From: Ariolimax columbianus
Taxonomy: Eukaryota > Mollusca > Gastropoda > Stylommatophora > Arionidae
Direction: 5' to 3'
Assembly: GCA_036924085.1 (NCBI GenBank)
Contig: JAVGWX010000012.1
Location: 253,001 to 317,000, forward strand
DNA length: 64,000 bases
The notes below the pieces were generated by a model. That model made no database searches. It saw only the letters and a list, made by a program, of their open reading frames with translations, and was not told the origin of the DNA. How positions within the stretch are numbered: the first letter of the stretch is position 1; the number at the start of each line of letters is the position of its first letter. Shown one piece after another: positions 6,472 through 59,575 of this stretch. A program made the position numbers and the translations under genes.

Positions 6472-6562
6472 TGTCAGACAGCTCGTGTATCCTGGGAGGC
6501 AAATCCTGAAAGTACTCGTGCCGTCTGGCACTAGTGGCTGAGATTCGCTGATATGGCTGCAT
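6472..6562 (-). CDS. Cdk14: Cdk14-like exon 9: [20 protein letters not shown]
   Basis: 91 bp: 30 codons plus one base, [20 protein letters not shown] then [10 protein letters not shown], against family CSPKNRLSAQAALSHEYFSD then LPPRLWELTD. Acceptor accatcacacag|ATG; donor GACA|gtaagt (phase 1). The coding sequence must continue (usually SSIF and a short tail), but I found no matching exon in 1-6471. The 26-bp array begins about 13 bp inside the next intron. Confidence 0.92.
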
Positions 6563-39500: not shown

Positions 39501-42500
39501 CAGGTAGGGGTGTATTTAGGCAAACCAAGTAGAGATGTGTGTAGGCAAACCAGGTAGAGGTGTATGTAGGCAAACCAGGTAGAGATGTATGTAGACAAAC
39601 CAGGTAGAGATGTGTGTAGGCAAACCAGGTAGGGGTGTATGTAGGCAAACCAAGTAGAGATGTGTGTAGGCAAACCAGGTAGAGGTGTGTGTAGACAAAC
39701 CCCAGATATGTATGTAGATGACAAAGGAAACAGTCATGTGGTAGTATTGGCAGGTACAAATAATGTAAAGAGAGATGGTACAGAAATAATTATGGATAAA
39801 TATAAAAGTCTTATGAGAACACTTAAGGGAAAAAAGTTTAGAAAGGTCACAATGATGGGCATTTTAGACAGAGCAGATGGGTCAGACTATCTAGATAGCA
39901 AAATAATAGGTATCAACCTTAGGTTACAGGTGATGTGTGCGGACATGGGAATGGAATTTATTGATGTTAAAGTAGACAAAAGTAAAATGTTAGATAGTGG
40001 AGGTTTACATCTAAATGAGATAGGACAGCATGTTGTAGCAAAGTATATGTTCTATCATTGTGTTAGAAATTTAAACTAGTAAGGCCTATGAAGTATGAGA
40101 CTAAAGATAGGCCTTCAATAGGGTGCTATAGAGGATGTAGTCAAAGGGGAGAGTTCGTGTCAGGGAAGTGTGAAATACATAGTAGAAAAGCAAACACTAA
40201 AATGATAAAGCAGAAGCAAAAAGAGGAAAACCAACAACATTACAAACTAAAATGTTTTTATGCAAATGTGAGAAGCATAGTCAATAAAAGAGAAGAATTG
40301 GAACTGTATGTAGAAGAAGAAAAACCAGATATAATAGGGTTAACAGAATCATGGACATTTGAGGAGATTGCAGATAGTGAACCTGAAATAGAGGGATATA
40401 CAATGTTAAGGAAAGATAGGATAATTGGAGACAAGACTAAGGGAGGTGGCGTTTTATTATACTGTATAAATTCTGTTAATATAACGATCAAAGATTATTT
40501 ATCATGTGGTAACAAAAATGAAAGTGTATGGGGAGAAATAGAAAGTGGGGGTGAAAAAACAGTGATTTGAGTGTGCTATAGATATCCATCAAGTCAAAAA
40601 GAGGAAGATGAGGAGCTGATTAGTAGCATAGCAAAGGCAAGTGAAGGGAAATTATTATTAATGGGAGATTTCAACTTTCCAGAAATAAAATGGGATATGG
40701 CAGAAGCACTTGTAGAGTCAAAACCTTTTGTTAAGTGCATAACTGACAATTTTTTAATTCAACATGTAGAAGCAGCCACCAGAGGCAAAAACATACTCGA
40801 CCTAGTTTTTACCACAGAGGAAAATATGATTGAAAACGTTACCGTTGGGGAACTGTTTGGCTCAAGTGACCATCAAATCATCCGTTGGGATCTTATTGCA
40901 GGGAAAGAAGTAAACATAAACACGCGAACATATGACTACTCTAAGGAAGATGTTAAGAGGATGAAAGAGGCAGCGAACCACATAATCTGGAAAGATATTC
41001 TTGTAGGAACAGATGTTGAACAGGAGTGGGAAAGTTTTAAAACAGTTCTAGAAACGCTAAAAGAGGAATGTGTTCCATGTAGGGAGGTAAACCCCAAGCG
41101 TAAAAAGTGGATAACTAGATTTGTAGTGAAATGTAGAAGAGCAAAAAATAAAGCATGGAAAAAATATATAGAGGCAGGTAAATCAAAAGAAACATATGTA
41201 AAATATTTGGACAAGCAGAACATATCTCAGAAAGCGAATAAAACAGCAAAAATAGACTTTGAAAAAAAACTTGCTCAGAGGATCAAGACTGACAGTAAAA
41301 GCTTCTTCTCTTATGTTAGGAATAAACAAAGAACGAAAGACAAAGTAGGCCCTCTCATAGACAGTACAGGGAAAATAATAAGTGAGAATAGGGAGGCTAC
41401 TAATCTGCTCAATCAGTACTTTGGCACAGTCTTCACAAAGGAGGACTGCTCCGAGATCCCAGAGCCTATAGATATTTTTCAAAGAGACATGGATACAGCG
41501 GGATTAAGATCAATCTGTATTACAGAGGAAATGGTTTTTTAAAAATTGGAGGGGTTGAAAGTGAATAAATGTCCAGGTCAAGATGGTATTCACCCAAAAT
41601 TGCTGTATGAAATTAGAGACCAACTAGCAAAACCATTGGCTATATTATGTTCTCAATCACTTACAAAAGGGATTGTTCCACGGGATTGGAAAGATGCAGG
41701 AGTGATCCCCTTATTCAAAAAAGGCAAAAAATCAGATCCGGCAAATTATAGACCGGTGAGTTTAACGAGCATAGTCTGTAAATTGTTAGAGTCAATAATC
41801 AAAGAAAACATTGTAATGCATTTAGACAAATTTAATCTAATTAGAAATAGTCAGCATGGGTTTACTAGAGGGAGATCATGCTTAACAAATCTATTAGAAT
41901 TCATGGAGGAGGTTACTAAAATCATAAATAAAGGGGAGCCAGTGGATGTTATTTATCTAGACTTTGCAAAGGCCTTTGATAGAGTACCTCATCAAAGATT
42001 ATTTCGAAAGTTAAAATCACATGGAATAGGTGGGGAAGTTGCCAAATGGATTGAAAATTGGTTAACGGGAAGAAGGCAGAGGGTGGGCATAAATAAGGAG
42101 TACTCTGAGTGGAGTGCAGTGAAAAGTGGTGTGCCACAGGGCTCAGTTTTGGGACCAATTTTGTTCTTGATATATATAAATGATTTGGACATTGATATGA
42201 GATCCATGATTGCAAAATTTGCTGATGACACAAAACTATGCAGTAGTGTCTCATCTAAAGCGGAAGTGGATATATTGATGTCAATATTTTTTTAGTCAGA
42301 GAGTGGTGTCTGCTTGGAATGCATTGCCAGGGGAGGTAGTGGAGGCAGGGATAGTTAATGCATTTAAGAATAAACTGGATGCGCATAGCTTTTAGAGCAA
42401 GGTGATGTAAATGTAACTGGTTGTATACAGACTCTGCAGGGTCTTCTAAACCAGTATAAAGACGTTAAGTTAAGTTAAGTTATGTGTGTAGACAAACCAG

Positions 42501-45500
42501 GTAGAGATGTGTGTAGACAAACCAGGTAGATATGTGTGTAGACAAACCAGGTAGAGATGTGTGTAGACAAACCCTAGAGATGTGTGTAGACAAACCCCAG
42601 AGATGTGTGTAGACAAACCATAGAGATGTGTGTAGACAAACCCCAGAGATGTGTGTAGACAAACCAGGTAGAGATGTGTTCAGACAAACCAGATAGAGAT
42701 GTGTGTAGACAAACCAGGTAGAGATGTGTTCAGACAAACCCTAGAGATGTGTAAAGAGAAACGCTAACCTTGACATTGAAAGTGTTGAGACCTCCAGGGT
42801 GTTTCTCCAAGTATTGACTCAGGTCTGTGTGCTATGGATGGAAGATCAAATAGTCCACTTACTGACAGTGATGGTTATATAAGAAACTCTAGCGACAGAT
42901 GCCATTCTTGTGGCTCCATATCAAGCATAAGACCACCCACACAATTGACACCTGAAGGTGTGATTGGCTATACCAAAACAATTTCTGCAATCTTTCAGTG
43001 GCGTTGGTGGTTTCTATAGCAATTTCTTTTTAATAATGAGCTTGCTAGCCCAATGCACAATCCTTTTTAGTTACCTTTCACAACATGCATGGCGGGGAGT
43101 TGGTTGGGAGTGATAATTTCCTTTCATTCTTGGAACACACAGAAAAATAGAACGTAATCTCAACTGGTCATCAGCATCATTCCCATCGCCAACAGCAGCA
43201 TCAAGATGGTGTATCTTCTGCAAGCTTGAATCATTTCTGGGCAATCTGACTCAGCTCACATTTCTGGACAATCTGACTCCCAGCTCACATTTCTGGCCAA
43301 TCTGACTCCCAGCTCACATTTCTGGCCAATCTGACTCCCAGCTCACATTTCTGGGCAATCTGACTCAGCTCACATTTCTGGACAATCTGACTCCCAGCTC
43401 ACATTTCTGGACAATCTGACTCCCAGCTCACATTTCTTGGCAATCTGACTCCCAGCTCACATTTCTGGACAATCTAACTCCCAGCTGACATTTCTGGGCA
43501 AGCTGACTCCCAGCTGACATTTCTGGACAATCTGACTCAGCTCACAATTCTGGACAATGACTCCCAGCTCACATTTCTGGGCAATCTGACTCCCAGATCA
43601 CATTTCAGGACAATCTGACTCTCAGCTCACATTTCTGGACAATGTGACTCCCAGCTCACATTTCTGGATAATCTGACTCCCAGCTCACATTTCTGGATAA
43701 TCTGACTCAGCTCACATTTCTGGACAATCTGACAGCTCACAATTCTGGGCAATCTGACTCACAGCTCACATTTCTGGACAATCTGACTCCCAGCTCCCAT
43801 TTCTGGATAATCTGACTCCCAGCTCACATTTCTGGATAATCTGACTCAGCTCACATTTCTGGACAATCTGACAGCTCACAATTCTGGGCAATCTGACTCA
43901 CAGCTCACATTTCTGGACAATCTGACTCCCAGCTCCCATTTCTGGACAATCTGACTCCCAGCTCACATTTTTGGATAATCTGACTCCCAGCTCACATTTC
44001 TGGACAATCTGACTCCCAGCTCACATTTCTGGACAATCTGACTCCCAGCTCACATTTCTGTACAATCTGACTCCCAGCTCACATTTCTGGACTTGATATC
44101 TGTCCCACTGCATGGTATCTGTCCCACTCTGCATGATATGTGTCTCAATCTGAATGATATCTGTCCCAATCTGCAAGATATGTGTCCTAATCTGCATGAT
44201 ATCAATCCCACTCTGCATCCCAATCTGCATATTTGTCCCAATCTGCATGCTATGTGTCCCAATCTGCATATCTGTATCAATCTGCATATCTGTCCCACTG
44301 CATGATATCTGTCCCACTCTGCATGATATCTGTCTCATTCTGCAAATATGTCCCAATCTGCATGATATCTATCCCACTCTGCATGATATGTGTCCCAATC
44401 TGAATGATATCTGTCCCACTCTGCATGATATCTGTCCCAATCTGCATATGTGTCACAATCTCCATGATATCTGTCCCAATCTGCATGATATATGTCCCAC
44501 TGCATGATATCTGTCCCACTCTGCATGATATCTGTCCCAATCTGCATATCTGTCCCAATCTGCATGATATTTGTCCCAATCTGCATATGTGTTCCAATCT
44601 GCATGATATCTGTCCTAATCTGCATATATGTCCCACTCTGCATGATATCTGTCCCACTCTGCGTGATATCTGCCCAAATCTGCATGATATCTGTCCTACT
44701 CTGCATGATATCTGTCCCAATCTGCATGATATATGTCCCAATCTGCATATCTGTCCCAATCTGCATGATATATGTCTCTCTGCATGATATCTGTCCCACT
44801 CTGCATGATATCTGTCCCAATCTGCATATCTGTCCCAATCTGCATATCTGTCCCAATCTGCATATCTGTCCCAATCTGCATATCTGTCCCAATTTGCATA
44901 TCTGTCCCAATCTGCATATCTGTCCCAATCTGCATATCTGTCCCAATCTGCATATCTGTCCCAATCTGCATATCTGTCCCAATCTGCATATCTGTCCCAA
45001 TCTGCATATCTGTCCCAATCTGCATATCTGTCCCAATCTGCATGATATATGTCTCTCTGCATGATATCTGTCCCACTCTGCATGATATCTGTCCCAATCT
45101 GCATATGTCCCAATCTGCATATCTGTCCCAATCTGCATGATATATGTCTCTCTGCATGATATATGTCTCTCTACATGATATATGTCCCAATTTGCATTAT
45201 ATCTGTCCCACGCTGCATGATACTTGTCCCACTCTGCATGATACTTGTCCCACTCTGCATGATACTTGTCCCACTCTGCATGATACTTGTCCCACTCTGC
45301 ATGATACTTGTCCCACTCTGCATGATACTTGTCCCACTCTGCATGATACTTGTCCCACTCTGCATGATACTTGTCCCACTCTGCATGATACTTGTCCCAC
45401 TCTGCATGATACTTGTCCCACTCTGCATGATACTTGCTTCTTATGCATTCTCTGGCCAAGTGCATCCCCTTTTTGCCTGCCTTTTTTAGGTTTGTCTTCC

Positions 45501-48500
45501 TTGATCTTGGTTGACTCCAGCCTTCCAGGAAGGCAGCAGGTAGTGATTACCGTTAGGAGTTGCTACTTTTAGATGACCTGCCCTCCCGGGTTCTTGAGTT
45601 CCATCTGTCTGAACTTTAGGTAGAGTTTACCTCTCCTAATTGGTATGTTTACCTGGACTCTTGAGTTCCATCTGACTGAACTTTAGGTAGAGTTTACCTC
45701 TCCTAATTGGTATGTTTACCTGGACTCTTGAGTTCCATCTGACTGAACTTTAGGTAGAGTTTACCTCTCCTAATTGGTATGTTTACCTGGACTCTTGAGT
45801 TCCATCTGACTAAACCTTAGGTAGAGTTTACCTCTCCTAATTGGTATGTTTACCTGGACTCTTGAGTTCCATCTGACTGGCTGCTGACATTCTTAGTCTG
45901 GCCACTCTGCAATGACCTACATGCTTGAGTGACCTTAACATGAACAAAGGAAACCCACTGGTATCATGTAGAGAGATCTGATACTAACCACACATTCAGC
46001 AATAAAGGTCAAGCCCTACTAACCACACATTCAGCAATAAAGGTCAAGCCCTACTAACCACACATTCAGCAATAAAGGTCAAGCCCTGATACTAACCACA
46101 CATTCAGCAATAAAGGTCAAGCCCTACTAACCACACATTCAGCAATAAAGGTCACAATGATACTAACCACACATTCAGCAATAAAGGTCAAGCCCTACTA
46201 ACCACACATTCAGCAATAAAGGTCAAGCCCTACTAACCACATATTCAGCAATAAAGGTCAAGCCCTACTAACCACATATTCAGCAATAAAGGTCAAGCCC
46301 TGATACTAACCCCACATTCAGCAATAAAGGTCAAGCCCTACTAACCACACATTCAGCAAATAAAGGTCAAGCCCTACTAACCACACATTCAGCAATAAAG
46401 GTCAAGCCCTACTAACCACATATTCAGCAATAAAGGTCAAGCCTTGATACTAACCACACATTCAACAATAAAGGTCAAGCCCTACTAACCACATATTCAG
46501 CAATTAAGGTCAAGCCTTGATACTAACCACATATTCAGCAATAAAGGTCAAGCCCTACTAACCACATATTCAGCAATAAAGGTCAAGCCCTACTAACCAC
46601 ATATTCAGCAATAAAGGTCAAGCCCTACTAACCACATATTCAGCAATAAAGGTCAAGCCCTACTAACCACACATTCAGCAATAAAGGTTAAGCCCTGATA
46701 CTAACCACACATTCAGCAATAAAGGTCAAGCCCTGATACTAACCACATATTCAAAGACAAAGGTCAAAGTCTCCCTGGTGTGTATAATGTCATGCAGTGT
46801 GACAATGTTGGCATGACGCAAGCCTTTCAGAAGTGATGCTATTGACAGAAAAGGAAACATTATTGGATGGGAGGGGCATTCAGGTGTAATGTTTTCAGTT
46901 GATATTAAACTTTGACACATAGTGGTCCACCCAACTTTGACACACACACAGTGGTCCACCCAACTTTGACACACACAGTGGTCCACCCAACTTTGACACA
47001 CACAGTGGTCCACCCAACTTTGACACACACAGTGGTCCACTCAACTTTGACACACACAGTGGTCCACTCAACTTTGACACACACAGTGGTCCACCCAACT
47101 TTGACACACACACAGTGGTCCACACAACTTTGACACACACAGTGGTCCACCCAACTTTGACACACACACAGTGGTCCACACAACTTTGACACACACAGTG
47201 GTCCACCCAACTTTGACACACACACAGTGGTCCACACAACTTTGACACACACAGTGGTCCACCCAACTTTGACACACACAGTGGTCCACTCAACTTTGAC
47301 ACACACAGTGGTCCACCCAACTTTGACACACACACAGTGGTCCACACAACTTTGACACACACAGTGGTCCACCCAACTTTGACCCACACAGTGGTCCTCA
47401 CAACTTTGACACACACAGTGGTCCACCCAACTTTGACACACACAGTGGTCCACCCAACTTTGACACACACAGTGATCTACACAACTATGACAAACACAGT
47501 GGTCCACACAAATATGTCACAGACCCAAACAACTATGACACACATGTCCATACAACTATGACACAGGTCCACACAACTATCACACATACAGGTCCACACA
47601 ACTATCACACACATGTCCACACAACTATGACACAGGTCCACACAAATATGACACAGGTCCATACAACTATGACACACAGGTCCACACAACCATGACACAG
47701 GTCCACACAACTATGACACAGGTCCACACAACTATGACACAGGTCCACACAACTATGACACACACAGGTTCACATAACTATGACACAAAGGTCCACAATA
47801 CTATGACACACACATGTCCACACAACTATGACACACACAGGTTATCAAAATCCGACCTCAATATATCCACTTCTGCTTTAGATAAGACACTAATGCATAG
47901 TTTTGTGTCATCAGCAAAAACCGAGCCTTGTGGCATTCCACTGTTTACTATTCACCACTCAAGAGTACTCCTTATTTATGCGCACTCTCTGCCTTCTTCC
48001 GGTTAAACAATTTTCAATCCATTTGACAACTTTCTCACCTATTCCATGTGACTTAAACTTTCTAAATAATCTTTGATGAGGTACTCTATCAAATTCCTTA
48101 GCAAAATCAAGATAAATAACAAAATGTGTCAAGTGAAAGAAACAACAACCAAGAGTTGTGTCAAGTGAAAGAAACAACAACCAAGAGTTGTGTCAAGTGA
48201 AAGAAACAACAACCAAGAGTTGTGTCAAGTGAAAGAAACAACAACAAAGAGTTGTGTCAAGTGAAAGAAACAACAACCAAGAGTTGTGTCAAGTGAAAGA
48301 AACAACAACAAAGAGTTGTGTCAAGTGAAAGAAACAACAACCAAGAGTTGTGTCAAGTGAAAGAAACAACAACCAAGAGTTGTGTCAAGTGAAAGAAACA
48401 ACAACAAAGAGTTGTGTCAAGTGAAAGAAACAAATATGACCACGTGTTGTGTCAAGTGAAAGAAACAACAACCAAGAGTTGTGTCAAGTGAAAGAAACAA

Positions 48501-51500
48501 CAACAACCAAGAGTTGTGTCAAGTGAAAGAAACAACAACCAAGAGTTGTGTCAAGTGAAAGAAACAACAACAACCAAGTGTTGTGTCAAGTGAAAGAAAC
48601 AAATATGACCAAGTGTTGTGCCAAGTGAAAGAAACAACAACCAAGAGTTGTGTCAAGTGAAAGAAACAACAACCAAGTGTTGTGTCAAGTGAAAGAAACA
48701 ACAACCAAGAGTTGTGTCAAGTGAAAGAAACAATAACAACCAAGAGTTGTGTCAAGTGAAAGAAACAACAACCAAGTGTTGTGCCAAGTGAAAGAAACAA
48801 CAACCAAGAGTTGTGCCAAGTGAAGGAAATAACATCAACCAAGAGTTGTGTCAAGTGAAAGAAATAACATCAACCAAGAGTTGTGTCAAGTGAAAGAAAT
48901 AACATCAACCAAGAGTTGTGCCAAGTGAAAGAAATAACATCAACCAAGAGTTGTGTCAAGTGAAAGAAATAACATCAACCAAGAGTTGTGTCAAGTGAAA
49001 GAAATAACATCAACCAAGAGTTGTGCCAAGTGAAAGAAATAACATCAACCAAGAGTTGTGTCAAGTGAAAGAAATAACAACAAAGAGTTGTGTCAAGTGA
49101 AAGAAACAACAACCAAGTGTTGTGTCAAGTGAAAGAAATAACATCAACCAAGAGTTGTGTCAAGTGAAAGAAATAACATCAACCAAGAGTTGTGTCAAGT
49201 GAAAGAAACAACATTAGCCAAGCACAAAAAGTGGATAACTAGATTTGTAGTTAAATGTAGAAGAGCTAAAAATAAAGCATGGAAAATATATATAGACGCA
49301 GGTAAATAGAAAGAAACATTTTAAATATTTGGACAAGCAAAACATAGCTCAGAAAGTGAATAAAACAGCAAAAATAGTTTAACAGATCTTAGCTGTAGAG
49401 ACAATATATAGGTAGGAGCTTAGACAACCATTTATTTCTTTTATCTTCATCGGATTTGAGTCCCGCCAGAATTTGAGCAACCAAATCGAACCACGGCGTA
49501 AGAGTCAGGCCAGGTGTCAACACCTGGGACAATAGTGGTAGACTTGCTGCCGCTGTGTCGTCTGGAAACCACGCGAAAAGGGGGGGTAATGGCAAGCAGA
49601 TGGACAAAAACGCGCTCCATTTTGGAAAACACGTGATCTGGGGGATGGAGATTGAATGTAAAAACCCGACAAAAAGACGCGAGAATCATTACTTGAGAAG
49701 AGATTCTAAAGTGATGCTCAGTTGAGAGCAGGCGGAGAGAGAAAAGACTTCACTTTAGATCATTACCTGAGAACACTTTTGAGAGAGACGGTGAGTGAGA
49801 GCAGGCAGCGGAGAGAATAAACTTGACTTCAGAGACAGAGAGTGAACACTTCACAGATGAAAGAACCACAGAGAGAGAACATTTGACTTCAGAGATTACA
49901 TGAGATAGACACAGAGAGAGAACATTTGACTTCAGAGATGACATGAGATAGACACAGAGAGAGAACATTTGACTTCAGAGATGACATGAGATAGACACAC
50001 ATAAAGAACATTTCACTTCGATCATTACTTGAGAATACATTCGAAAGAGACGCTCATTGGAGGGCAGGCGATGGAAATATGCAGTTGAGGCAGATTTGAG
50101 TTGAGAACCACCAAGAGAGAACATTTCACTTCAGAAATAGAGACAGAACATTTCACTTCAGAGACAGAGGTACTTTGGAAAGAGGGCAGGCGACGAAGAT
50201 ATGCAGTTGAGGCAGATTTGAGTTGATATTTAGGCGACGGAGAGAGGCAGTTGAGATAGACAAGCAGCAAGCAAGGTAACTACTCTCATATTATGTAGTG
50301 GTCGTATTTACAAGTGCTCAGTAGCTTATAGAGACAGTTTTCCAGTCATCCCATTCATCATAGTGATGCAGAGAAAGAATTTAAGTTGTTAGAGAGTTTG
50401 TAGTTACTGGGATAAATAATATGTTGTATTGTGTTTAGATTTAGTGTTACTTGAATTTGTTTAAGAGTGAAATAGAATAGAGCCGACCCCTTTACCGTTT
50501 GCGACAGAGCTCCATCAAATCAACCGGCTCTGGTACAGTACTTCCAAAAAAAAACTGCTAATAGGATCGTAAAAACTTCTTTCCATGTTAGAAATAAACA
50601 AATAATGAAAGACAAGGTAGGCCCTCTCATAGATAGCACAGGTAAAATAATAAGAGAACACAGGGAGGCAGCTAATCTACTAAATCAATACTTTGGCACA
50701 GTATTCACACATGAAGATTGCTCCAAGATACCAGAGCCTATAGATATTTTCAAATGTGAAATGGATATAGTGGGATTTAAATCAATCTGTATTACGGAGA
50801 AATAATAGTTTTTTTAAAAATTGGAGGGATTAAAAGTGGATAAATGTCCAGGTCAAGATGGTATCCATCCAAAATTGCTGTTTGAAATTAGAAACCAACT
50901 AGCAAAACCATTGTATTTTTCAAAACACAACCACCAACAAGAACAAGAGTGCACAGATTCAAATTAACTAAAGAAAAGGTCCAGATTAGAAATTAGGAAA
51001 TTTTCTTTAGTAAGAGAGTGGTGAATGATTGGAATGCATTGCCCCAGGAGGTAGTGGAGGCAGAGACAGTAAATGCAATTAAGAATAGATTGGATGCTCA
51101 TAGCTTTTAGAGCAGAATAATATAAATGTACCTGGCTGTATACAGACTCTGATAAGTCTTCTAAACCAGTATAAAAACGTTAAGTTCAGTTGTAAGTGTT
51201 GTGTCAAGTGAAACAACAACAGAGTTCAGTCACTGCCGTGTGTTCGTCCTACTTGTAACGAGAGACTTTAGTCACTGCCGTGTGTTTGTCCTACTTGTAA
51301 CGAGAGACTTCAGTCACTGCCGTGTGTTTGTCCTACTTGTAACGAGAGACTTCAGGCACTGCAGTGAGTTCGTCCTACTTATAACGAGAGACTTCAGTCA
51401 CTGCCATGTGTTCGTCCTACTTGTAACGAGAAACTTTAGTCACTGCAGTGAGTTCGTCCTACTTATAACGAGAGATTTCAGTCACTGCAGTGAGTTCGTC

Positions 51501-53870
51501 TTACTTATAACGAGAGACTTTGTGTTCAGTCACTGCAGTGTGTTCGTTATACTTATGAGAGACTTCAGCCACTGCAGTGTGTTCGTCCTACTTATAACGA
51601 GAGACTGTATTCAGTCACTGCAGTGTGTTCGTCCTACTTATAACGAGAGACTTTGTGTCCAGTCACTGCAGTGTGTTCGTCCTACTTATAACGAGACTTT
51701 GTGTTCAGTCACTTCACAGTGTTCGTCCATCTTATAATGAAAGACTTCAGTCACTGCAGTGTGATTGTCCTACTTATGACATGCCAGAAGTTTAATGATA
51801 GGGTGTAGGAAAAGTAGATGAGGGAGAAAGGGTCCAGGCAACCCTGATGTGGATGTGCAGCAGACAAGACCAGATTAGCATACACTACAACAGGGTAATA
51901 ACCAGTGTTTCTGTGACCTGGCTGAGCAGATAGGGAGCACTGCTGTAACAGTTCCAGCCAGAGCATGGGCGTTAACGGCAGGGGTGATAGGGTCGGCAAA
52001 GCTGAGAACTAAGGTACCTGAATGTGTGGCGAGGTCATTCAACATCTCGACACTAAGTTGACAAAGGAATACAGGGGATTGAAGTGAAGAATGTGTCTGG
52101 TACAGGTAGGAGTTAGGACCTAACCACTCTGGTGTTCCGATTTGGGTAGTGGGGGGTTAGTAACAGACAAAGGCCATCAGGTCTTGCTGCAACATTTTAG
52201 AGTGACAGGAATTTAGAGTGATTCGTTCCAATAACAACTAAGTGGAGGTAGATCCAAACTGGAGTGATGGCTCAGCCAGACAACCCACAGAAGGCCATTA
52301 GACAGCCCTGACACTGCTTGAGATTATATAATATTAGGCAAAGTGTAACTCAAGCAGAGCAGGCTGGCCATGGAGAGAGAGAGAGAGACTAAGCATTTAG
52401 CTAGGAGACTGTTAAGCTCACTGACTTTCTAGAAGAGCGATTGTTAGCCTGCTACTAGTTTAGCAGGCTGTTTTACGAATGTGTCAGAGATGGAATGAAT
52501 TGCAAGGTGACTGAACCAGCATACACTTTTGAATCTTCGCCAGTCGCTCTATAAGGTGTGTGGTGGGCTCCTTGTGACTAGAAGAGATCTGAATGTGTGT
52601 GTGCAGAACACCAAGGGAACAATGTATCTTCCGGAGTATGTGTATACACAGATCGATTGAGTGTGTGATCACATGTGAGTATACGTTGAACAGATTGAAT
52701 GTGTAATGTCAAGATCACCTACCTGAAGAGATCTGAGTGTGAGTGAATGCACAGAATACGATCATGAAGACGAGTTTGTGAGAGTGTGCAGATGAGGGGA
52801 GGAGAGGGTAGCGGCTAAAACTGGGTTATGTAGTTACATAAATAACATCAACAGCAATTGCTTGTATGTTCTGTTATAGTTAAATATATATATTATAATT
52901 ATTTAGTTAAGATGTATTTTCTGTTATAGTTAAATATATATATTATAATTATTTAGTTAAGATGTATTTTCTGTTATAGTTAAATATATATATTATAATT
53001 ATTTAGTTAAGATGTATTTTCTGTTATAGTTAAATATATATATTATAATTATTTAGTTAAGATGTATTTTCTGTTATAGTTAAATATATTTATTATAATT
53101 ATTTAGTTAAGATGTATTTTCTGTTATAGTTAAATATATATATTATAATTATTTAGTTAAGATGTATTTTCTGTTATAGTTAAATGTATATATTATAATT
53201 ATTTAGTTAAGATGTATTTTCTGTTATAGTTAAATATATATATTATAATTATTTAGTTAAGATGTATTTTCTGTTATAGTAATTATAATTATTTAGTCAA
53301 GATGTATTTTCTGTTATAGTTAAATATATATATTATAATTATTTAGTTAAGATGTATTTTCTGTTAAAGTTAAATATATATATTATAATTATTTAGTTAA
53401 GATGTATTTTCTGTTATAGTTAAATATATATATTATAATTATTTAGTTAAGATGTATTTCAATGGTTGTTTGTAAATATATTGTTTGTTTTAATGAGTTG
53501 TTATTAAATATGAAGATGGTTGCTGGAGAATGTTGCTGTGTTATTTGCTGTATGTGGTCGTGAATGTGTTGGATGCATGTGGTAACATTGTAGATAGAAA
53601 AACCCCAGTGAAATCTGTACTCTACTTAACTCTGGCTGTAGTGAGAACTGATAGTGACCTGACACAAACACGACACAAACACAACAACACTGACAAACCT
53701 TCCCTGATGGCAGTAAAGGGTGCTCCCTCCTCTTCTTGCAGCCTGATCTCTTTGAGAGCTACCACCTGGTTAGTCAGACTACTGAACCCCTTGAACACTG
53801 TGGCATAAGAGCCTTCACCCAACTGTTCCAGCTTGCTGTAGGAGTCAGCTCTGCCAAATGGTGACGGACC
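6472..53870 (-). CDS. Cdk14: PFTAIRE-type cyclin-dependent kinase (CDK14/Eip63E family), partial gene, 9 exons
   Basis: Join of exons 53699-53870, 46744-46838, 42769-42831, 37967-38028, 36516-36577, 35011-35131, 19466-19623, 11782-11879 and 6472-6562: 922 bp, 307 complete codons, all phases compatible and no internal stop. In the joined protein the glycine loop GEGSYATV is at about 18-25, the ATP lysine (VALK) at 40, the family-defining PFTAIRE cyclin-binding helix at 51-57, HRDLKPQN at 130-137, DFG at 150-152 and WYRPPD at 172-177. WYRPPD instead of the usual APE, and the [12 protein letters not shown] context, place it in the CDK14/15/Eip63E group rather than the PCTAIRE kinases. Family members are Ser/Thr kinases that act with cyclin Y, in Wnt co-receptor phosphorylation and the cell cycle. 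All catalytic residues seen are intact, so this looks like a functional gene. The N-terminal region and the final C-terminal exon or exons are missing from the window. Introns run from 1.4 to 15.4 kb and are filled with repeats. Confidence 0.93.
6563..6723. other. Intron sequence upstream of exon 9
   Basis: Contains the exon 9 acceptor (accatcacacag) and a short unique stretch. No other feature recognised. Confidence 0.5.
6724..7092. repeat. 24-bp palindromic minisatellite, about 15 copies
   Basis: Unit caccttgggaagtcaatctt plus ccca; nearly perfect copies, with one cttgtg variant near 6940. The core gggaag...cttccc is an inverted repeat, so each unit can fold. On the minus strand it continues the LINE RT codons AFNKVWED directly, so it grew out of that reading frame. 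Confidence 0.95.
7085..7275 (-). pseudogene. LINE reverse transcriptase motif A fragment
   Basis: The minus-strand frame reads [20 protein letters not shown] then [20 protein letters not shown] and [19 protein letters not shown] is RT motif A of an I/Nimb-type or related LINE. A 15-bp tandem duplication ([10 protein letters not shown]) lies near 7215-7245. Downstream codons are replaced by the 24-bp array. Confidence 0.8.
7300..7526 (+). pseudogene. RTE-like LINE 3' end with (TTGA)n tail
   Basis: The frame reads [20 protein letters not shown] then [17 protein letters not shown] and stops. The RGRPR..WRRE..A...TW...AHDR pattern is the usual C-terminus of RTE-type polyproteins. It is followed closely by (ttgatt/ttga)n at about 7495-7526, a typical short-repeat 3' tail. 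Only the last 70 or so codons remain. Confidence 0.72.
7545..8440 (-). pseudogene. LINE endonuclease plus start of RT, decayed
   Basis: Minus-strand frames give [17 protein letters not shown] (APE), [17 protein letters not shown] decayed codons, [18 protein letters not shown] and [12 protein letters not shown] (the RNQIDYI region), then [20 protein letters not shown] and [12 protein letters not shown] (RT block). This is the invertebrate LINE whose intact protein reads NYRPISLISHASKI...AEEQAGFR. Multiple frameshifts. Different family and orientation from its neighbours, so this is a mosaic locus. Confidence 0.75.
8445..10305 (+). pseudogene. CR1-like non-LTR retrotransposon, copy 1 (RT and 3' end)
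   Basis: 5'-truncated CR1-type element. Its frames contain [17 protein letters not shown] RT start (here [15 protein letters not shown]), [45 protein letters not shown], then the usual FADDTKL decayed to KFVDAIKL. The thumb reads [20 protein letters not shown] and [20 protein letters not shown]. The 3' end is gtcttctaacccagtataaa followed by a short ttaagtt tail, as in the other copies. Stops and frameshifts throughout. The catalytic second and third Asp are altered (VDAI for ADDT). Confidence 0.9.
10320..10382. repeat. Left part of a 15-bp minisatellite
   Basis: Units of gttctaacattcagt. The same repeat continues at 11004-11105; an I-like LINE fragment splits the array. Confidence 0.75.
10383..11003 (-). 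pseudogene. I/Nimb-like LINE 3' fragment (RNase H end and zinc motif)
   Basis: An open minus-strand frame (10406-10987) reads [87 protein letters not shown]. It is closely similar to the C-terminal third of the element at 17563-19225, including the final RNase H Asp (NEEAD) and the CxC..H..C motif. A (GAA)n tail at 10381-10397 marks the 3' end. 5'-truncated just before the third RNase H Asp. It looks young: no stop inside, about 90% similar by eye. Confidence 0.88.
11004..11105. repeat. Right part of the 15-bp minisatellite
   Basis: About six units of gttctaacattcaat/agt; continuation of 10320-10382 on the other side of the LINE insertion. Confidence 0.85.
11106..11574. other. Unassigned intron sequence
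   Basis: No domain recognised. A minus-strand frame (11152-11346) reads [18 protein letters not shown] but matches no family I know; it may be a decayed repeat. Confidence 0.4.
11575..11772. repeat. Polypurine (GA-rich) tract next to the exon 8 donor
   Basis: Runs of gagagaaagagag with very few pyrimidines. In the direction of the kinase transcript it is a long polypyrimidine tract that starts a few bases after the exon 8 donor. Confidence 0.85.
11782..11879 (-). CDS. Cdk14: Cdk14-like exon 8: HAEDLA segment
   Basis: 98 bp: 2 bases plus 32 codons ending [18 protein letters not shown]. The family has NKLSYVNHAEDLASKLLQ. The first half ([14 protein letters not shown]) is less conserved, as in other members. 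Acceptor ctctctacag|AGAAAC; donor CAG|gtatgt (phase 0). Frames on both sides agree. The acceptor is slightly less certain than the others because the 5' half is poorly conserved. Confidence 0.85.
11909..12150. repeat. 30-bp minisatellite upstream of the exon 8 acceptor, 8 copies
   Basis: Unit agcatgaagacaacacatgt plus accatcagac. It ends about 30 bp from the exon 8 acceptor, and the last partial unit (catgctgtctg in transcript sense) runs into the pyrimidine tract. Confidence 0.93.
12343..12960. repeat. 39-bp minisatellite, about 16 copies
   Basis: Unit acaaaaaacatttatacgta plus ggtcagatattgtgctagg. 39 bp is 13 codons, so long open frames appear on both strands (189 and 210 codons); I do not treat these as genes. 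Variants (gttagatactg, gtcacatactg) are distributed in repeating blocks. Confidence 0.95.
13117..13545. repeat. 29-bp minisatellite alternating as a 58-bp dimer
   Basis: Two unit types alternate: cacatcatgactcaacaaag plus cttagagaa, and cacatcatgactcaacaaaa plus attagacag. The dimer is strict across about six rounds, then decays after 13470. Confidence 0.93.
13546..14018 (+). pseudogene. LINE RNase H domain and C-terminal fragment
   Basis: The frame reads [20 protein letters not shown], stop, [33 protein letters not shown] and, in another frame, [15 protein letters not shown] (third Asp) and NERAD (fourth Asp) with [13 protein letters not shown] are RNase H hallmarks of I-type LINEs; [10 protein letters not shown] resembles the final zinc-like motif. 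One nonsense (TGA after VQRG) and frameshifts. Confidence 0.75.
14019..14290 (+). pseudogene. LINE RT thumb fragment, out of normal order
   Basis: The frame reads [38 protein letters not shown] and [15 protein letters not shown], which corresponds to 17740-17930 of the I/Nimb-like element. In an intact element this lies before the RNase H domain; here it follows it. It is either a second insertion or a rearrangement. Confidence 0.75.
14291..14640 (+). mobile_element. Fragment of LTR-like repeat family A
   Basis: gtctataaaagagattcggg, gggatggttatcccatcata and gataccctgtaaacaataag match the middle of the element at 33558-34696 in order, including the TATA-like box. 5' and 3' ends are missing. 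Confidence 0.65.
14690..15125. repeat. 57-bp minisatellite, about 7 copies
   Basis: Unit gatggatgggtggataaatg, gatgggtgggtggatgaagg, gagacagtggtggagag. It is itself built of ggatgggt-like short repeats. Stop-free in two frames because 57 is a multiple of three. Confidence 0.93.
15126..15785. other. Unassigned intron sequence
   Basis: No gene or transposon domain recognised. A gagaaaggaatttagaggaa motif occurs twice (about 15420 and 15475). Confidence 0.4.
15786..16815. repeat. 36-bp minisatellite, about 28 copies, open in all three minus frames
   Basis: Unit agcagatgatggtataatct plus gtatgtctgtgtacaa. Left copies carry gtctgtgtac, right copies gtgtgtgtac. A marked variant (agaagatagtataatcgg) recurs in the right half at about 16278, 16350, 16490 and 16630. 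All three minus frames stay open for 357-411 codons only because the unit is 12 codons long. Confidence 0.95.
16920..17563. mobile_element. Fold-back mariner-like element: two inverted 5' ends
   Basis: The left arm (16920-17222, plus) and right arm (17284-17563, minus) are about 90% similar by eye over some 290 bp. Both start with tgtcacttctggtgtaaac (left: cgtcac) and both contain the transposase start [20 protein letters not shown] with the HTH residues after it. About 60 bp lies between. The transposase catalytic part is absent from both arms. Shape: terminal repeat, ORF start, spacer, inverted ORF start, terminal repeat. Confidence 0.85.
17042..17224 (+). pseudogene. Mariner transposase N-terminal HTH fragment (left arm)
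   Basis: 60 codons from [23 protein letters not shown], then [20 protein letters not shown] and [16 protein letters not shown], the paired-like HTH of mariner/Tc1 transposases (RxxIxFL, G..IH.RL..VYG, V..W...F). It stops where the inverted spacer begins. The right arm carries the same start at about 17447, reading leftwards. Confidence 0.85.
17563..19225 (+). mobile_element. I/Nimb-like LINE: RT thumb, RNase H, zinc motif, (GAA)n tail
   Basis: 5'-truncated. The RT end (17563-17765) reads [20 protein letters not shown] and [12 protein letters not shown], then a TGA in place of the expected Trp and a one-base shift. The main frame (17792-19192, 466 codons) continues the thumb ([17 protein letters not shown]). 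RNase H follows with its four acidic residues in order: [36 protein letters not shown]. Then comes [18 protein letters not shown] (CxC..H..C). The 3' end is gtacgaagaagaagaa. The RNase H and tail are undamaged, so the insertion is fairly recent. It joins the fold-back mariner directly at 17563. Confidence 0.9.
19226..19465. other. Intron after exon 7
   Basis: Contains the exon 7 donor and a short (CA)n run near 19305. Nothing else recognised. Confidence 0.45.
19466..19623 (-). CDS. Cdk14: Cdk14-like exon 7: C-lobe GVGCIFTEM...FPGMKD
   Basis: 158 bp: one base, 52 codons, one base. It encodes [20 protein letters not shown], a [13 protein letters not shown] segment and [13 protein letters not shown] (alphaF to alphaG). 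Acceptor ggtcacacag|GGGTG; consensus donor CTCA|gtgagt. It is 15.4 kb from exon 6, and the 11.2-kb array begins only a few tens of bases upstream of the acceptor. Confidence 0.94.
21841..26580. repeat. Large tandem duplication inside the 11.2-kb array (2.6-kb spacing)
   Basis: Marker variants recur in the same order in two blocks of about 2.1 kb. Examples: catatacccccgagtgtgat at about 22372 and 24978, and gataaattccatcatcatag at about 23538 and 26132. The offset is 2606 bp at the left and 2594 at the right, because one copy lacks one 12-bp insert near 25530. Divergence is very low. Confidence 0.88.
24000..28325. repeat. Second duplication inside the array (about 4.06-kb spacing)
   Basis: A block of about 270 bp marked by cccagtgtgtgaacctccat and aacctccaccatcat occurs at about 24065 and again at about 28120, with the flanking variants in the same order. 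Confidence 0.8.
31009..32010 (-). pseudogene. Mariner-like transposase, nearly full length, decayed
   Basis: Read leftwards from about 32005: [20 protein letters not shown] with [16 protein letters not shown] (HTH), then [38 protein letters not shown], the [13 protein letters not shown] region, [56 protein letters not shown] and a stop. This order (HTH, CARWVPR, DNAx[16 protein letters not shown]...GDYVE) is mariner. Frameshifts near 31835, 31500 and 31320 make it inactive. It lies in the intron between exons 6 and 7. Confidence 0.88.
32045..33261 (-). mobile_element. LTR-like repeat family A, copy A' (minus)
   Basis: Starts TGTAACAGTTCC (reading leftwards from 33261) and ends near taacattttg at about 32030-32045, like the other copies. 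Shares with copy A, in order: the ggtaccag segment, ccaactgg, the TATA-like region, gtgacatcaaaagctagtgc near 32290, and ccctgctaca. About 1.2 kb. No protein-coding domain. Confidence 0.72.
33340..33557. repeat. 28-bp minisatellite, about 7 copies
   Basis: Unit gttgtgtacaaactacatac plus aaacatta. It lies between the two head-to-head LTR-like copies, and remnants (gattagttgtgtactaagta) reappear at about 34700-34745 beyond copy A, so copy A probably inserted into it. Confidence 0.9.
33558..34696 (+). mobile_element. LTR-like repeat family A, copy A (plus), 1.1 kb
   Basis: Starts TGTGACAGTTCCAG and ends near cctaacattct. Flanks acaag and acaaag could be a target duplication but are not exact. 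A TATA-like box (gtctataaaggac) lies mid-element at about 33960, conserved in copies B, C and D (tatataat, tataaaat). A TG start, a mid-element TATA and no coding domain fit a solo LTR, but no internal retrotransposon region was seen, so the class is an inference. Confidence 0.68.
34855..35010. repeat. 67-bp repeat carrying the exon 6 donor
   Basis: gaccacatgt starts at 35008 (authentic exon 6 end and donor) and 34941; gatcaaatgt starts at 34874. The unit in transcript sense is tttgacatgtggtcagtcag plus about 47 bp. The first repeat keeps the GT of the donor; the second has AT. Confidence 0.9.
35011..35131 (-). CDS. Cdk14: Cdk14-like exon 6: activation segment and WYRPPD
   Basis: 121 bp: 2 bases, 39 codons, 2 bases. 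It encodes [18 protein letters not shown], then [18 protein letters not shown] and SLDMW, which is nearly identical to fly and human family members. Acceptor cttgcag|GCCTGG; donor ATGTG|gtcagt, with Trp split across the intron. The end of the exon and its donor recur twice at 67-bp spacing in the intron (34941 and 34874). Confidence 0.95.
35215..35480 (+). pseudogene. LINE C-terminal fragment with zinc motif
   Basis: Frames give [25 protein letters not shown], stop, [13 protein letters not shown]. LRTGHxRL...M..SDTxxCxC..xxQTxEHILQxC is the end of I-type LINE ORFs. Too decayed to place in a family. Confidence 0.65.
35575..35830. repeat. Dispersed repeat R3, copy 1
   Basis: tgctgatgaaggtgaaccag, ggtcctccaggcgg, actcactactatgaggc, cagtccgttttcagg match 37670-37860 in order. 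No coding domain recognised. Confidence 0.6.
35779..36015. repeat. 37-bp minisatellite, about 6 copies
   Basis: Unit cagtatgttttacctgaccc plus tgattaacatttccgat; grew at the right end of repeat R3. Confidence 0.9.
36120..36450 (+). pseudogene. LINE RT C-terminal fragment
   Basis: The frame reads [23 protein letters not shown], stop, [20 protein letters not shown]. The pattern YLG...EIK.R...AK..F......L.......R...L is the RT thumb of RTE/Jockey-type LINEs. Decayed and short. Confidence 0.6.
36516..36577 (-). CDS. Cdk14: Cdk14-like exon 5: catalytic loop DLKPQNLL and LADF
   Basis: 62 bp: one base, 20 codons [20 protein letters not shown], one base. It carries the catalytic Asp and the Asn of DLKPQN and the metal-binding Asp of DFG, whose Gly is split with exon 6. 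Acceptor gttgactacag|GGACC; donor TTCG|gttagt. The acceptor's pyrimidine tract is itself one unit of the upstream array at 36583-37565. Confidence 0.93.
36583..37565. repeat. 22-bp minisatellite that includes the exon 5 acceptor tract
   Basis: Unit tgtcaacaagaggacattta plus tg, alternating with tgacatgtttcaacaagaca ttttt variants. In transcript sense the unit is aaatgtcctcttgttgacac; the exon 5 acceptor reads aaatgtccttttgttgacta followed by CAG, so the authentic 3' splice site is the last unit of the array. Confidence 0.93.
37610..37870. repeat. Dispersed repeat R3, copy 2
   Basis: Matches 35575-35830: aactgatgaaggtggaccgg, gtcctccagg, gctcactactacaagg, cagtctgtttccagg, ctgatcagtatt. Confidence 0.6.
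37967..38028 (-). CDS. Cdk14: Cdk14-like exon 4: alphaE and first half of the HRD motif
   Basis: 62 bp: 20 codons ([20 protein letters not shown]) plus AG, which completes Arg of HRD with the first G of exon 5. Acceptor gtcccccag-type tract ending ccccag|CTG; strong donor AG|gtgagt (phase 2). The family has LFLFQLLRGLSYIHQRYILHRD here, so the match is close. Confidence 0.92.
38110..39330. repeat. 16/17-bp minisatellite, 1.2 kb
   Basis: ggatataagagctgtt units mixed with ggatatgtgtggtgtgt units in recurring blocks. It lies in the intron between exons 3 and 4. Confidence 0.93.
39410..39714. repeat. 30-bp minisatellite, left part
   Basis: Unit gtgtgtaggcaaaccaggta plus gagatgtgtg-type spacer, about 10 copies. 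The same array continues at 42480-42755; a CR1 copy separates them. Confidence 0.92.
39715..40079 (+). pseudogene. CR1 ORF1, SGNH/GDSL-esterase-like domain (C-terminal part)
   Basis: An open frame to the stop at 40077-40079 reads [40 protein letters not shown] and [24 protein letters not shown] corresponds to the GxND block and GGLHLN to the DxxH block of SGNH hydrolases. Here the Asp position appears to be Gly (one base from GAT), so even this copy may not be catalytic. Esterase-type ORF1 proteins are known in several CR1 lineages, where they probably bind RNA or lipid. Confidence 0.72.
40088..42287 (+). pseudogene. CR1 ORF2: APE endonuclease and reverse transcriptase, with two stops
   Basis: One frame throughout. 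Endonuclease: [56 protein letters not shown] (about 40661), [10 protein letters not shown] (about 40862). [57 protein letters not shown] (motif A), [23 protein letters not shown] (motif C, about 42212). TGA at 40568-40570 and TAA at 41540-41542 are simple substitutions; otherwise the catalytic residues are all present. The thumb is lost to the internal deletion. Confidence 0.93.
42480..42755. repeat. 30-bp minisatellite, right part, next to the exon 3 donor
   Basis: Units gtgtgtagacaaaccaggta / gagat and variants ending caaaccctagagatgtg. It ends about 14 bp from the exon 3 donor. Confidence 0.92.
42769..42831 (-). CDS. Cdk14: Cdk14-like exon 3: HTDLSQY...HPGGL segment
   Basis: 63 bp, 21 codons: [21 protein letters not shown], which matches the family's HTDLCQYMDKHPGGL (alphaD region). 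I chose acceptor ccatag|CACACA because it gives phase 0 after exon 2 and restores the conserved HTDL. The alternative cacacag|ACC would lose the frame. The donor is AAG|gttagc. A 30-bp minisatellite starts about 14 bp into the intron. Confidence 0.9.
42832..43227. other. Unique intron sequence upstream of exon 3
   Basis: Contains the exon 3 acceptor. No repeat or domain recognised. Confidence 0.45.
43228..44092. repeat. 29-bp minisatellite (26-bp variants), about 30 copies
   Basis: Unit ctcacatttctggacaatct plus gactcccag; shorter units lack ccc. A block of about 120 bp repeats at 43690-43810 and 43810-43935. Confidence 0.93.
44098..45433. repeat. 18/21-bp minisatellite, 1.3 kb
   Basis: Units aatctgcatatctgtccc (18 bp, homogeneous at about 44820-45040) and actctgcatgatacttgtcc plus c (21 bp, homogeneous at about 45210-45433), mixed to the left. 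Long open frames on both strands follow from the 18/21-bp unit and are not genes. Confidence 0.94.
45590..45885. repeat. 67-bp tandem repeat, 4.3 copies
   Basis: cttgagttccatctgactga starts recur every 67 bp from about 45590; near identical. Confidence 0.93.
45979..46743. repeat. 35/39-bp minisatellite made of the exon 2 end and its splice donor, about 20 copies
   Basis: Unit actaaccacatattcagcaa plus taaaggtcaagccct, sometimes with a gat insert. In transcript sense: gacctttattgctgaatatg followed by tggttagt. Exon 2 ends gacctttgtctttgaatatg, tg|gttagt. The authentic donor is the first member of the series. Confidence 0.94.
46744..46838 (-). CDS. Cdk14: Cdk14-like exon 2: alphaC to hinge
   Basis: 95 bp: 2 bases plus 31 codons, [18 protein letters not shown] through TLTFVFEYV. 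These are the alphaC end, beta4, beta5 and the hinge of the N-lobe. The acceptor is tgtcaatag|CATCAC and the donor GTG|gttagt (phase 0). The last 30 or so exon bases with the donor are nearly the same sequence as the repeat unit of the array that follows at once in the intron (45979-46743). Confidence 0.93.
46905..47470. repeat. 27-bp minisatellite upstream of exon 2
   Basis: Unit acacacagtggtccacccaa plus ctttgac. It ends about 70 bp from the exon 2 acceptor. Confidence 0.93.
47471..47840. repeat. 21-bp related minisatellite
   Basis: Unit acaactatgacacaggtcca plus c, a diverged relative of the neighbouring 27-bp array. Confidence 0.88.
47841..48124 (-). pseudogene. CR1-like fragment, copy 3 (RT), internally deleted
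   Basis: Minus strand from 48124: [40 protein letters not shown], then a jump to [19 protein letters not shown] codons at 47850-47930. Both ends cut; flanked by unrelated arrays. Confidence 0.85.
48125..49215. repeat. 32-bp minisatellite, about 33 copies
   Basis: Unit tgtcaagtgaaagaaacaac plus aaccaagagttg. A remnant at 51191-51222 on the far side of a CR1 insertion shows the array was split. Confidence 0.94.
49216..51188 (+). mobile_element. CR1-like copy 4, split by another element
   Basis: 49216-49379 matches the linker between endonuclease and RT ([19 protein letters not shown]). The match resumes at 50545 with codons that follow directly in other copies ([17 protein letters not shown], then [14 protein letters not shown]) and ends with ttctaaaccagtataaaaac and ttaagttc. 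The 1.16 kb in between is LTR-like family F. The CR1 also has an internal deletion near 50912, joining the RT start to the 3' end. Confidence 0.87.
49380..50537 (-). mobile_element. LTR-like repeat family F, copy F1, nested in CR1
   Basis: Reading leftwards from 50537: TGTACCAGAGCCGG, tggagctctgtcgc, ggtaaaggggtcggctctat, then aagtaacactaaa, cataatatgagagtagttac, and at the end aaattctggcgggactca and aatggttgtctaagctcc. The same landmarks occur in the same order in copy F2 (58247-61663). Short internal near-repeats (gagaacatttgacttcagag) at about 49875-49980. Confidence 0.75.
51223..51780. repeat. 42-bp minisatellite, about 13 copies
   Basis: Unit ttcagtcactgcagtgtgtt, cgtcctacttataacgagag, ac. 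Stop-free because 42 bp is 14 codons. Confidence 0.93.
51944..53595 (+). mobile_element. LTR-like repeat family A, copy B (plus), with internal array
   Basis: Starts TGTAACAGTTCCAGCC and ends ggtaacattgtag. TATA-like box gagattatataatattagg at about 52320. Landmarks shared with copy C: cagggctgtc-type segment, gttcttatt..ggaacgaatc, aacatcaacagcaattgctt. Contains a 50-bp AT-rich array (52867-53455) that copy C lacks. Without the array it is about 1.1 kb. Confidence 0.75.
52867..53455. repeat. 50-bp AT-rich minisatellite inside copy B, about 12 copies
   Basis: Unit gatgtattttctgttatagt, taaatatatatattataatt, atttagttaa; nearly identical copies. Copy C has a single equivalent unit. Confidence 0.95.
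53699..53870 (-). CDS. Cdk14: Cdk14-like exon 1 of those seen: glycine loop, VALK lysine, PFTAIRE helix
   Basis: 172 bp: 57 codons plus one base. It encodes a short N-terminal extension ([16 protein letters not shown]), the glycine loop [10 protein letters not shown], the VALK lysine and the PFTAIRE helix. The acceptor is gagcacag before GGT (phase 0). The donor is GAAG|gtttgt (phase 1), completed by CA of the next exon to give Ala, as in REASLLK of the family. Upstream sequence in the window holds no further kinase exon I could recognise. The exon lies between two inverted copies of one LTR-like repeat (51944-53595 and 54238-55400). Confidence 0.93.
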
Positions 53871-58246: not shown

Positions 58247-58284
58247 TGTAACAGAGCTGACCGATTTGCTGGAGCTCTGTCGCA

Positions 58285-59575
58285 GACGGAAAGGGGTCTG
58301 CTCTATTCTATCTCACTCTACACTCAGATGGTAAAGGGGTCTGCTCTATTCTATCTCATTCTACACTCAGACGGTAAAGGGGTCTGCTCTATTCTATCTC
58401 ACTCTACACTCAGACGGTAAAGGGGTCTGCTCTATTCTATCTCACTCTACACTCAGACGGTAAAGGACTCTGCTCTATTCTATCTCACTCTACACTCAGA
58501 CGGTAAAGGGGTCTGCTCTATTCTATCTCACTCTACACTCAGACGGTAAAGGACTCTGCTCTATTCTATCTCACTCTACACTCAGACGGTAAAGGGGTCT
58601 GCTCTATTCTATCTCACTCTACACTCAGACGGTAAAGGGGTCTGCTCTATTCTATCTCACTCTACACTCAGACGGTAAAGGACTCTGCTCTATTCTATCT
58701 CACTCTACACTCAGACGGTAAAGGGGTCTGCTCTATTCTATCTCACTCTACACTCAGACGGTAAAGGGGTCTGATCTATTCTATCTCACTCTACACTCAG
58801 ACGGTAAAGGGGTCTGCTCTATTCTATCTCACTCTACACTCAGACGGTAAAGGACTCTGCTCTATTCTATCTCACTCTACACTCAGACGGTAAAGGGGTC
58901 TGCTCTATTCTATCTCACTCTACACTCAGACGGTAAAGGGGTCTGCTCTATTCTATCTCACTCTACACTCAGACGGTAAAGGGGTCTGCTCTATTCTATC
59001 TCACTCTACACTCAGACGGTAAAGGGGTCTGCTCTATTCTATCTCACTCTACACTCAGACGGTAAAGGACTCTGCTCTATTTTATCTCACTCTACACTCA
59101 GACGGTAAAGGGGTCTGCTCTATTCTATCTCACTCTACACTCAGACGGTAAAGGGGTCTGATCTATTCTATCTCACTCTACACTCAGACGGTAAAGGGGT
59201 CTGCTCTATTCTATCTCACTCTACACTCAGACGGTAAAGGGGTCTGCTCTATTCTATCTCACTCTACACTCAGACGGTAAAGGACTGTTCTATTCTATCT
59301 CACTCTACACTCAGACGGTAAAGGGGTCTGCTCTATCCTATCTCACTCTACACTCAGACGGTAAAGGGGTCTGCTCTATTCTATCTCTCTACACTCAGAT
59401 GGTAAAGCAGTCTGCTCTATTCTATCTCACTCTACACTCAGACGGTAAACGGGTCTGCTCTATTCTATCTCACTCTACACTCAGACGGTAAAGGGGTCTG
59501 CTCTATTCTATCTCACTCTACACTCAGATGGTAAAGGGGTCTGCTCTAGACTATCTCACTCTACACTCACGCTAA
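58285..59575. repeat. 43-bp minisatellite, about 30 copies
   Basis: Unit gacggtaaaggggtctgctc, tattctatctcactctacac, tca. Two variants (aggggtctgctc and aggactctgctc) alternate in blocks. F1 carries one unit of the same sequence. Confidence 0.95.

Follow-up and report, generated by a model that had tools for sequence, protein, structure and literature searches.

Tandem copies of a coding exon end and its donor splice site in the CDK14 gene of the land snail Ariolimax columbianus, with border arrays at unrelated genes

Across the 64,000 nucleotides of A. columbianus DNA analysed here (the window), a coding exon of CDK14, exon B, was found to run into a minisatellite whose unit descends from the end of that exon together with its 5' splice site. 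The exon-border array noticed in a preliminary description of the sequence is thus real, and that account was incomplete in that the array is one of many such cases in this genome. What is new here is that border repetition goes beyond the oddity of one gene and can be given a rate per splice site.

The array after exon B of CDK14

The gene on the minus strand around the array was identified from its translation, part of which reads as a CDK-like kinase, as gastropod CDK14 (a PFTAIRE kinase), and its exons were placed by tblastn (Table 1). When joined at GT..AG borders, the nine exons of the window gave a single open frame, 307 residues long, that holds the whole kinase domain (PF00069, positions 1-263 of 263) and, in exon A, the PFTAIRE motif. 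With the flanking sequence of the same contig, 13 coding exons joined and the frame closed with a stop codon; the first residues of CDK14 were not found in the window or in the flanking sequence of the contig. Among the best 120 of 7,990 proteins scored, the closest was from Bradybaena similaris (Stylommatophora; 97% identity), with CDK14-named molluscan proteins next, and membership of CDK14 was assigned on the motif, the kinase domain and the presence of an orthologue among these best matches. Exon B, numbered exon 2 in the preliminary description, is the fifth of the 13 coding exons placed.

Table 1. Features placed in the window. A slash marks the exon-intron border, here and in the text.
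Feature	Position	Strand	Basis or remark
Border-derived minisatellite after exon B	45982-46767	-	Tandem Repeats Finder; first 24 bases exonic
Authentic 5' splice site of exon B, GTG/GTTAGT	46738-46743	-	First unit of the array; frame and homology, FEYV/HTDL junction
21 decoy donors, GTTAGT	45983-46705	-	First bases 46705 ... 45988
Border array at exon F, 67-bp unit, 2.6 copies	34852-35025	-	Last 15 exon F bases and donor
Coding exon A	53699-53870	-	Upstream of exon B, 6,860-nt intron between
Coding exon B, 95 nt	46744-46838	-	Source of array unit; in-frame splicing to neighbours
Coding exon C	42769-42831	-	Joined to exon B across 3,912-nt intron
Coding exon D	37967-38028	-	
Coding exon E	36516-36577	-	
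Coding exon F	35011-35131	-	End GACATGTG/GTCAGT
Coding exon G	19466-19623	-	
Coding exon G2	11782-11879	-	
Coding exon H	6472-6562	-	

Tandem Repeats Finder reported a 35-bp unit in 21.9 copies with 91% matches; the range of 45979-46838 first given for the array does contain it, but takes in the whole exon besides. Exon B ends in GAATATGTG/GTTAGT (in longer form, in gene orientation, TTGACCTTTGTCTTTGAATATGTG/GTTAGTATCAGGGC), and 21 units come after it, reading, in the same orientation, TTGACCTTTATTGCTGAAT(A or G)TGTG/GTTAGTA(TCA)GGGC. The first copy, on the exon side, carries the authentic donor, as had been proposed and as frame and homology bear out. No inserted 'tg' was present, and the units read AATATGTG or AATGTGTG, the two forms differing by an A/G variant at position -5 (8 A and 13 G among the 21 decoys). 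The interspersion of these variants, seen in a single haplotype, suggests array turnover. Units are spaced by 35 (13/21), 38 (6/21) or 36 (2/21) bases, which upholds the 35-base step of the preliminary description and replaces its 39-base step.

The claimed origin from a coding exon end and its 5' splice site was borne out by alignment. The unit matched 20 of the last 24 bases of exon B (19/24 for the G variant), with a chance of about 3e-9 when the register is fixed and each base matches at 25%, and the first 14 intron bases were identical to those of the next unit (14/14). Aligned with the last 45 exon bases, the array consensus scored above 500/500 shuffles in which only base composition was preserved, so that none of the shuffled units fitted the exon as well. 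Four exon-side differences are common to the units and missing from the real exon B, the TFVFEYV of which was present in 5/5 mollusc homologues read; exon B is therefore the source, and the units are its amplified, diverged copies. A DNA search of the genome for the same array elsewhere, in which very common words were skipped so that uniqueness is unproven, returned the array itself and four weaker places at 63-70% identity (L002-L005, L002 and L005 overlapping). These were rejected as relatives, having different units, with two chance occurrences of GTGGTTAGT in L002. The bases CAG occur both in exon B (CACCAGGGAGACTTTGACC) and in the intron right after the last unit (GTTAGTATCAGATCTC), a pair that would fit an initial duplication of ~42 bases, afterwards reduced to 38 and 35 bases.

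Assembly of arrays is difficult, and either the array or its copy number might have been made in assembly. We give this very little credence, as single changes interspersed along the array distinguish its units, the genome (2.29 Gb) is assembled in 401 contigs, the longest reaching 180 Mb, and independent border arrays were found at other genes.

Decoy donors, the message and a proposed mechanism

Including the authentic site at 46743, there were 22 GTTAGT sites, so that the transcript would carry 21 decoys where about 20 had been estimated. The nine-base site GTG/GTTAGT was found in 21/22 (the authentic donor and 20/21 decoys), with GGG/GTTAGT in one decoy. By a simple estimate of the U1 duplex, the authentic donor and 20 decoys paired at -4.9 kcal/mol and the remaining decoy at -6.1, and hence 21/21 decoys were no weaker than the authentic donor when the units were scored. 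As GTTAGT is also the donor of exon E in the same gene, the weak-looking donor of exon B is ordinary in CDK14. The GT was intact in 21/21 decoy registers, and minor states in the decoys numbered 1 among 180 donor bases and 12 among 420 bases upstream (8 of them in one column). Selection to keep the decoys could also fit the intact state of all 21, though these counts are too small to decide it.

Use of any of the decoys would lengthen exon B by 38 to 755 bases, which agrees with the stepwise lengthening of the exon proposed earlier but not with steps in the protein, as all 21 decoy isoforms reach one common stop (FEYVVSIRA, then stop) inside the first unit. The first donor is probably the sole one used. 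If decoys were used, they might lengthen exon B into a regulated 'poison' form, with the mRNA probably decayed and the length of the array tuning CDK14 output. The single stop shared by 21/21 decoys, their retained GT and their undiminished U1 pairing are as such an extension would have them; yet the stop falls within the first 38 intron bases, where any extension meets it, and therefore a poison effect needs no array. Homologous proteins, though from other species, have the normal FEYV junction, and comparable arrays in amphioxus are reported from RT-PCR to leave splicing undisturbed (PMC3087553). We regard regulation of this kind as unlikely.

The bases TAGGG stand directly after 14/21 decoys and are absent after the single authentic donor. 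UAGGG is a known motif of hnRNP A1, a protein that favours the upstream donor, and the array might accordingly be an evolved element that silences decoys or supports the authentic donor, the loss of 3 bases from 38- to 35-bp units having created the motif. This seems to us less likely still: one event spread through array turnover suffices to explain the motif, 7 decoys are without it, the role of hnRNP A1 is predicted from the motif, and the consensus units of other donor arrays shown have no TAGGG beside the donor.

The reading that we prefer, and consider probable, is of a neutral and splice-blind minisatellite begun across the exon end, its donor copies being tolerated and acceptor copies mostly removed. 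Short direct repeats would have flanked a small tandem duplication that put the end of exon B and its donor into the intron; as the sequence shows, the copy then diverged (GTCTTT to ATTGCT), lost its kinase codons and was amplified to 21 units, the exon-side copy retaining the coding sequence. The donor nearest the exon would beat identical ones downstream, as published minigenes on other genes suggest, and the array would leave with the intron. The duplication steps and the neutrality of the array are what we infer. Use of the donor copy closest to the exon probably explains why the array is tolerated. With the nearest donor winning and the array removed with the intron, copies of donor borders would be nearly invisible to selection, whereas acceptor copies, lying upstream of the real acceptor, would compete with it and mostly be removed. 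On this reading, the same process has acted at other CDK14 donors and at the donors of unrelated genes in the genome.

Flanked by introns of 6.9 and 3.9 kb, exon B is expected to be recognised by exon definition. When minigenes offered two identical strong consensus donors under exon definition, splicing went exclusively to the upstream one, and among competing 3' sites the upstream one was preferred, less so under exon definition (PMC9225289); a difference between donors and acceptors would follow from this result because the real donor is the upstream copy and the real acceptor the downstream copy. The same paper holds counter-evidence, as with weakened identical donors the upstream one was still preferred in smaller exons only, larger exons being skipped, and in a survey without matching for strength the downstream donor was commoner; its abstract has exon definition favouring the sites closest across the exon, acceptors included. 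Such a closest-site rule for acceptors too predicts less asymmetry than our survey shows, and, in view of these counter-results and of the weak donor of exon B (about -4.9 kcal/mol), its tolerance remains a prediction.

Comparison with known border duplications

The preliminary description knew of no array with a coding exon-intron border as its unit, but amphioxus 'mirages', minisatellite-like tandem duplications of exon-intron borders, precede it (PMC3087553, PMC3902484). They are described for Adh3 and the globins BflGb6 and BflGb9 (PMC3087553), with troponin C and PGBD5 added later (PMC3902484), and have units of 10-72 bp in Adh3 and of ~150-160 bp in the globins (PMC3087553). As in the exon B array, the mirage unit spans the exon-intron boundary, splice signals are repeated and the real border is the exon-side copy. 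The exon B array has a border-spanning unit, repeated splice signals and unit lengths (35/36/38) within 10-160 bp, and the snail arrays are of the same kind as the amphioxus mirages. The host differs, a land snail against cephalochordates, a distinction taken as one of published range and not of definition. There are 21 decoys here as against 3-6 repeat units for BflGb6. Mirages, too, affect both 5' and 3' borders; in the snail about one in ten sampled donors and far fewer acceptors were affected. In the literature searched, most subscription papers being outside reach, no report was found of molluscan border arrays or of a rate per splice site.

Splice signals are likewise copied in the Rogers model of intron gain by AGGT-containing tandem duplication (potato RdRp, PMC4974935), although the exon B array enlarges an existing intron and makes no new one. 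It might nonetheless be on the way to intron gain or the creation of an exon, with a decoy unit in time turning into a new exon end: its architecture is as drawn in PMC3087553, such gain has been proposed for the amphioxus globins and for AGGT duplications, and human tandem repeats at exon-intron boundaries gave new introns (PMC2812944). We think this most improbable, as the intron was already there, the units have no acceptor and all decoy frames stop at once. The human internal tandem repeats in segmental duplications are also minisatellites of ~30 bp that alter gene structure at borders; they are exonic, and spliced out or retained (PMC2812944), whereas the snail units lie in the intron and derive from the border. 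Intronic minisatellites of the ordinary kind share the period, copy number and turnover of the exon B array, the unit of which differs in holding coding sequence and a splice site.

Border arrays elsewhere in CDK14 and in the genome

Tandem arrays, 32 after merging, cover 30,410 of the 64,000 bases of the window. At 7/18 CDK14 borders an array lay within 30 bases or less on the intron side, as against a mean of 0.86 under a placement null (0/2,000 as high). The array at exon F has two further registers, one retaining GTG/GTCAGT and the other without GT, and in a shuffle test on the exon part only, 8/500 shuffles equalled it, a weaker result than that for exon B.

Borders were then surveyed in two families unrelated to CDK14, using myosin head (69 matches) and kinesin (122 matches) loci in the snail's own assembly. 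For myosin, 50/69 matches were taken (the best 30 and 20 others chosen unseen from the list), 11/50 of which had a stop in the match frame; for kinesin, 60/122 matches, all stop-free, were taken by rank. A border was counted as repeated when its 16-base word recurred at least twice within 400 intron bases with no more than 3 mismatches. With 110 borders possible for either type, the calling score was reached by 100 donors and 103 acceptors, and the remainder were dropped.

Over all 110 exons the border word was repeated at 11/100 called donors, 2/103 acceptors and 13.1% of random intron positions (Fisher's test; donor versus acceptor 0.009, acceptors versus random 7e-5, donors versus random 0.33). 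The first batch of 90 exons gave 8/81 donors, 1/85 acceptors and 11.9% of random intron positions, with a repeated word at ~0.06% of exon-interior positions, and a replicate of 20 kinesin exons gave 3/19, 1/18 and 12.7%, which alone was not significant (P 0.60). Under six word definitions applied to the 110 exons, 10-11/100 donors and 2-4/103 acceptors were repeated (Fisher 0.009 to 0.063), with acceptors below random (1e-5 to 4e-4) and donors indistinguishable from it (0.17 to 0.33). These data, small in number and based on borders called automatically, support a modest donor-acceptor asymmetry; the donor scoring rule could have been pulled towards array copies. In CDK14 itself, 2/12 donors and 0 to 2/13 acceptors were repeated, against 38-40% of its intron positions (a random rate of 38-39% under the four definitions with exon bases in the word), and so its donors may also be under-represented.

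Five of the 11 repeated donors were inspected closely (L009, L058, L062, L070, L078); of the others, L030, L053 and L091 are less certain, and L106, L113 and L115 stand as called automatically. Border-derived arrays lay at both ends of the myosin exon L009, at the donor of L058 and at the acceptor of L032, and at the donors of the kinesin exons L062, L070 and L078, with a 42-base stretch of the exon end of L062 recurring exactly inside the intron array. Border arrays are therefore not confined to CDK14, and they seem common in this snail genome. Decoy registers totalled 126, 102 of them with GT and 56 matching the strength of their respective authentic sites, a total that includes loose registers (4 at exon F against 2 in a stricter count, and 9 at L058 against 6). 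In kinesin L070 (C17:8051847-8052905), CAG/GTGAGT is followed by 15 downstream copies, 14/15 as strong as the authentic site, and this locus is a sharper test case than exon B. The idea that decoys are weakened where the authentic donor is strong was dropped, as L009 fits it (8/16 lost GT) and L070 does not (15/15 keep it).

At the myosin loci an array was present at 7/74 borders against 1.2% of array-free positions, and 17% of random intronic positions were inside arrays. The closeness of arrays to exon edges was no longer counted in favour of preferential seeding near splice sites, because blind seeding with exons kept clear gives the same. Genome-wide, AGGTAAGT three times at a spacing of 20-50 gave 3,386 + 3,477 matches against 2,867 + 3,277 for the backwards pattern; matches within one array overlap in these counts, and the 1.1-fold excess therefore shows no more than the lack of a strong preference for donors as seeds.

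That this genome amounts to a natural mutational scan, in which about one in ten donors has tandem self-copies, some of full strength (14/15 at L070), and acceptors are rarely repeated, we put forward tentatively, as a view held with slightly less than even confidence. Among the literature searched, these arrays extend the phenomenon from amphioxus into molluscs, and the survey suggests that it is frequent there, with a plain reason for its build-up if copies past a donor cost little. A natural series of identical donors after one exon would make the choice among equal 5' splice sites testable by ordinary RNA sequencing. If RNA showed only the first donor to be used, hundreds of long-intron genes would prove that nearness to the exon, and not strength, decides, and that duplications of donors and acceptors differ in fitness cost. 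Many of the strong-looking donors met in annotating such genomes would be decoys.

Further arrays were observed in and around the gene. Outside the window, a 29-bp, 22-copy array (L006:8818-9466; C12:251818-252466) begins within the final part of the last CDK14 coding exon, and its units each hold the last codons, the stop and CTCAG/GTAAAC, GTAAAC being a putative donor; CTCAGGTAAAC occurs 22 times in it, the first copy included, and AACACTCAAAA and AACACTTAAAA are candidate starting repeats. The other side of the same exon adjoins a 22-bp array with a unit ending in TAG like the real acceptor. Within the window, an 11-kb array of ~30-bp units (AACCTCCATCATCATAGACCCCAGTGTGAT) at 19652-30823 occupies the greater part of the intron preceding exon G, stopping 28 bases short of its acceptor, and an array at 36583-37572 ends 5 bases before exon E, the last unit providing the pyrimidine-rich tract of the acceptor (TGTCCTTTTGTTGAC). 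A 43-bp array of 30 copies with 95% matches (unit CAGACGGTAAAGGGGTCTGCTCTATTCTATCTCACTCTACACT) lies at 58283-59569, and a single string similar to its unit, in opposite orientation, lies near 50480-50500. Weak tblastn matches on the plus strand at ~8600-9200, 41500-42000 and 62400-62750 read like pieces of what we take to be one family of non-LTR retrotransposon reverse transcriptases.
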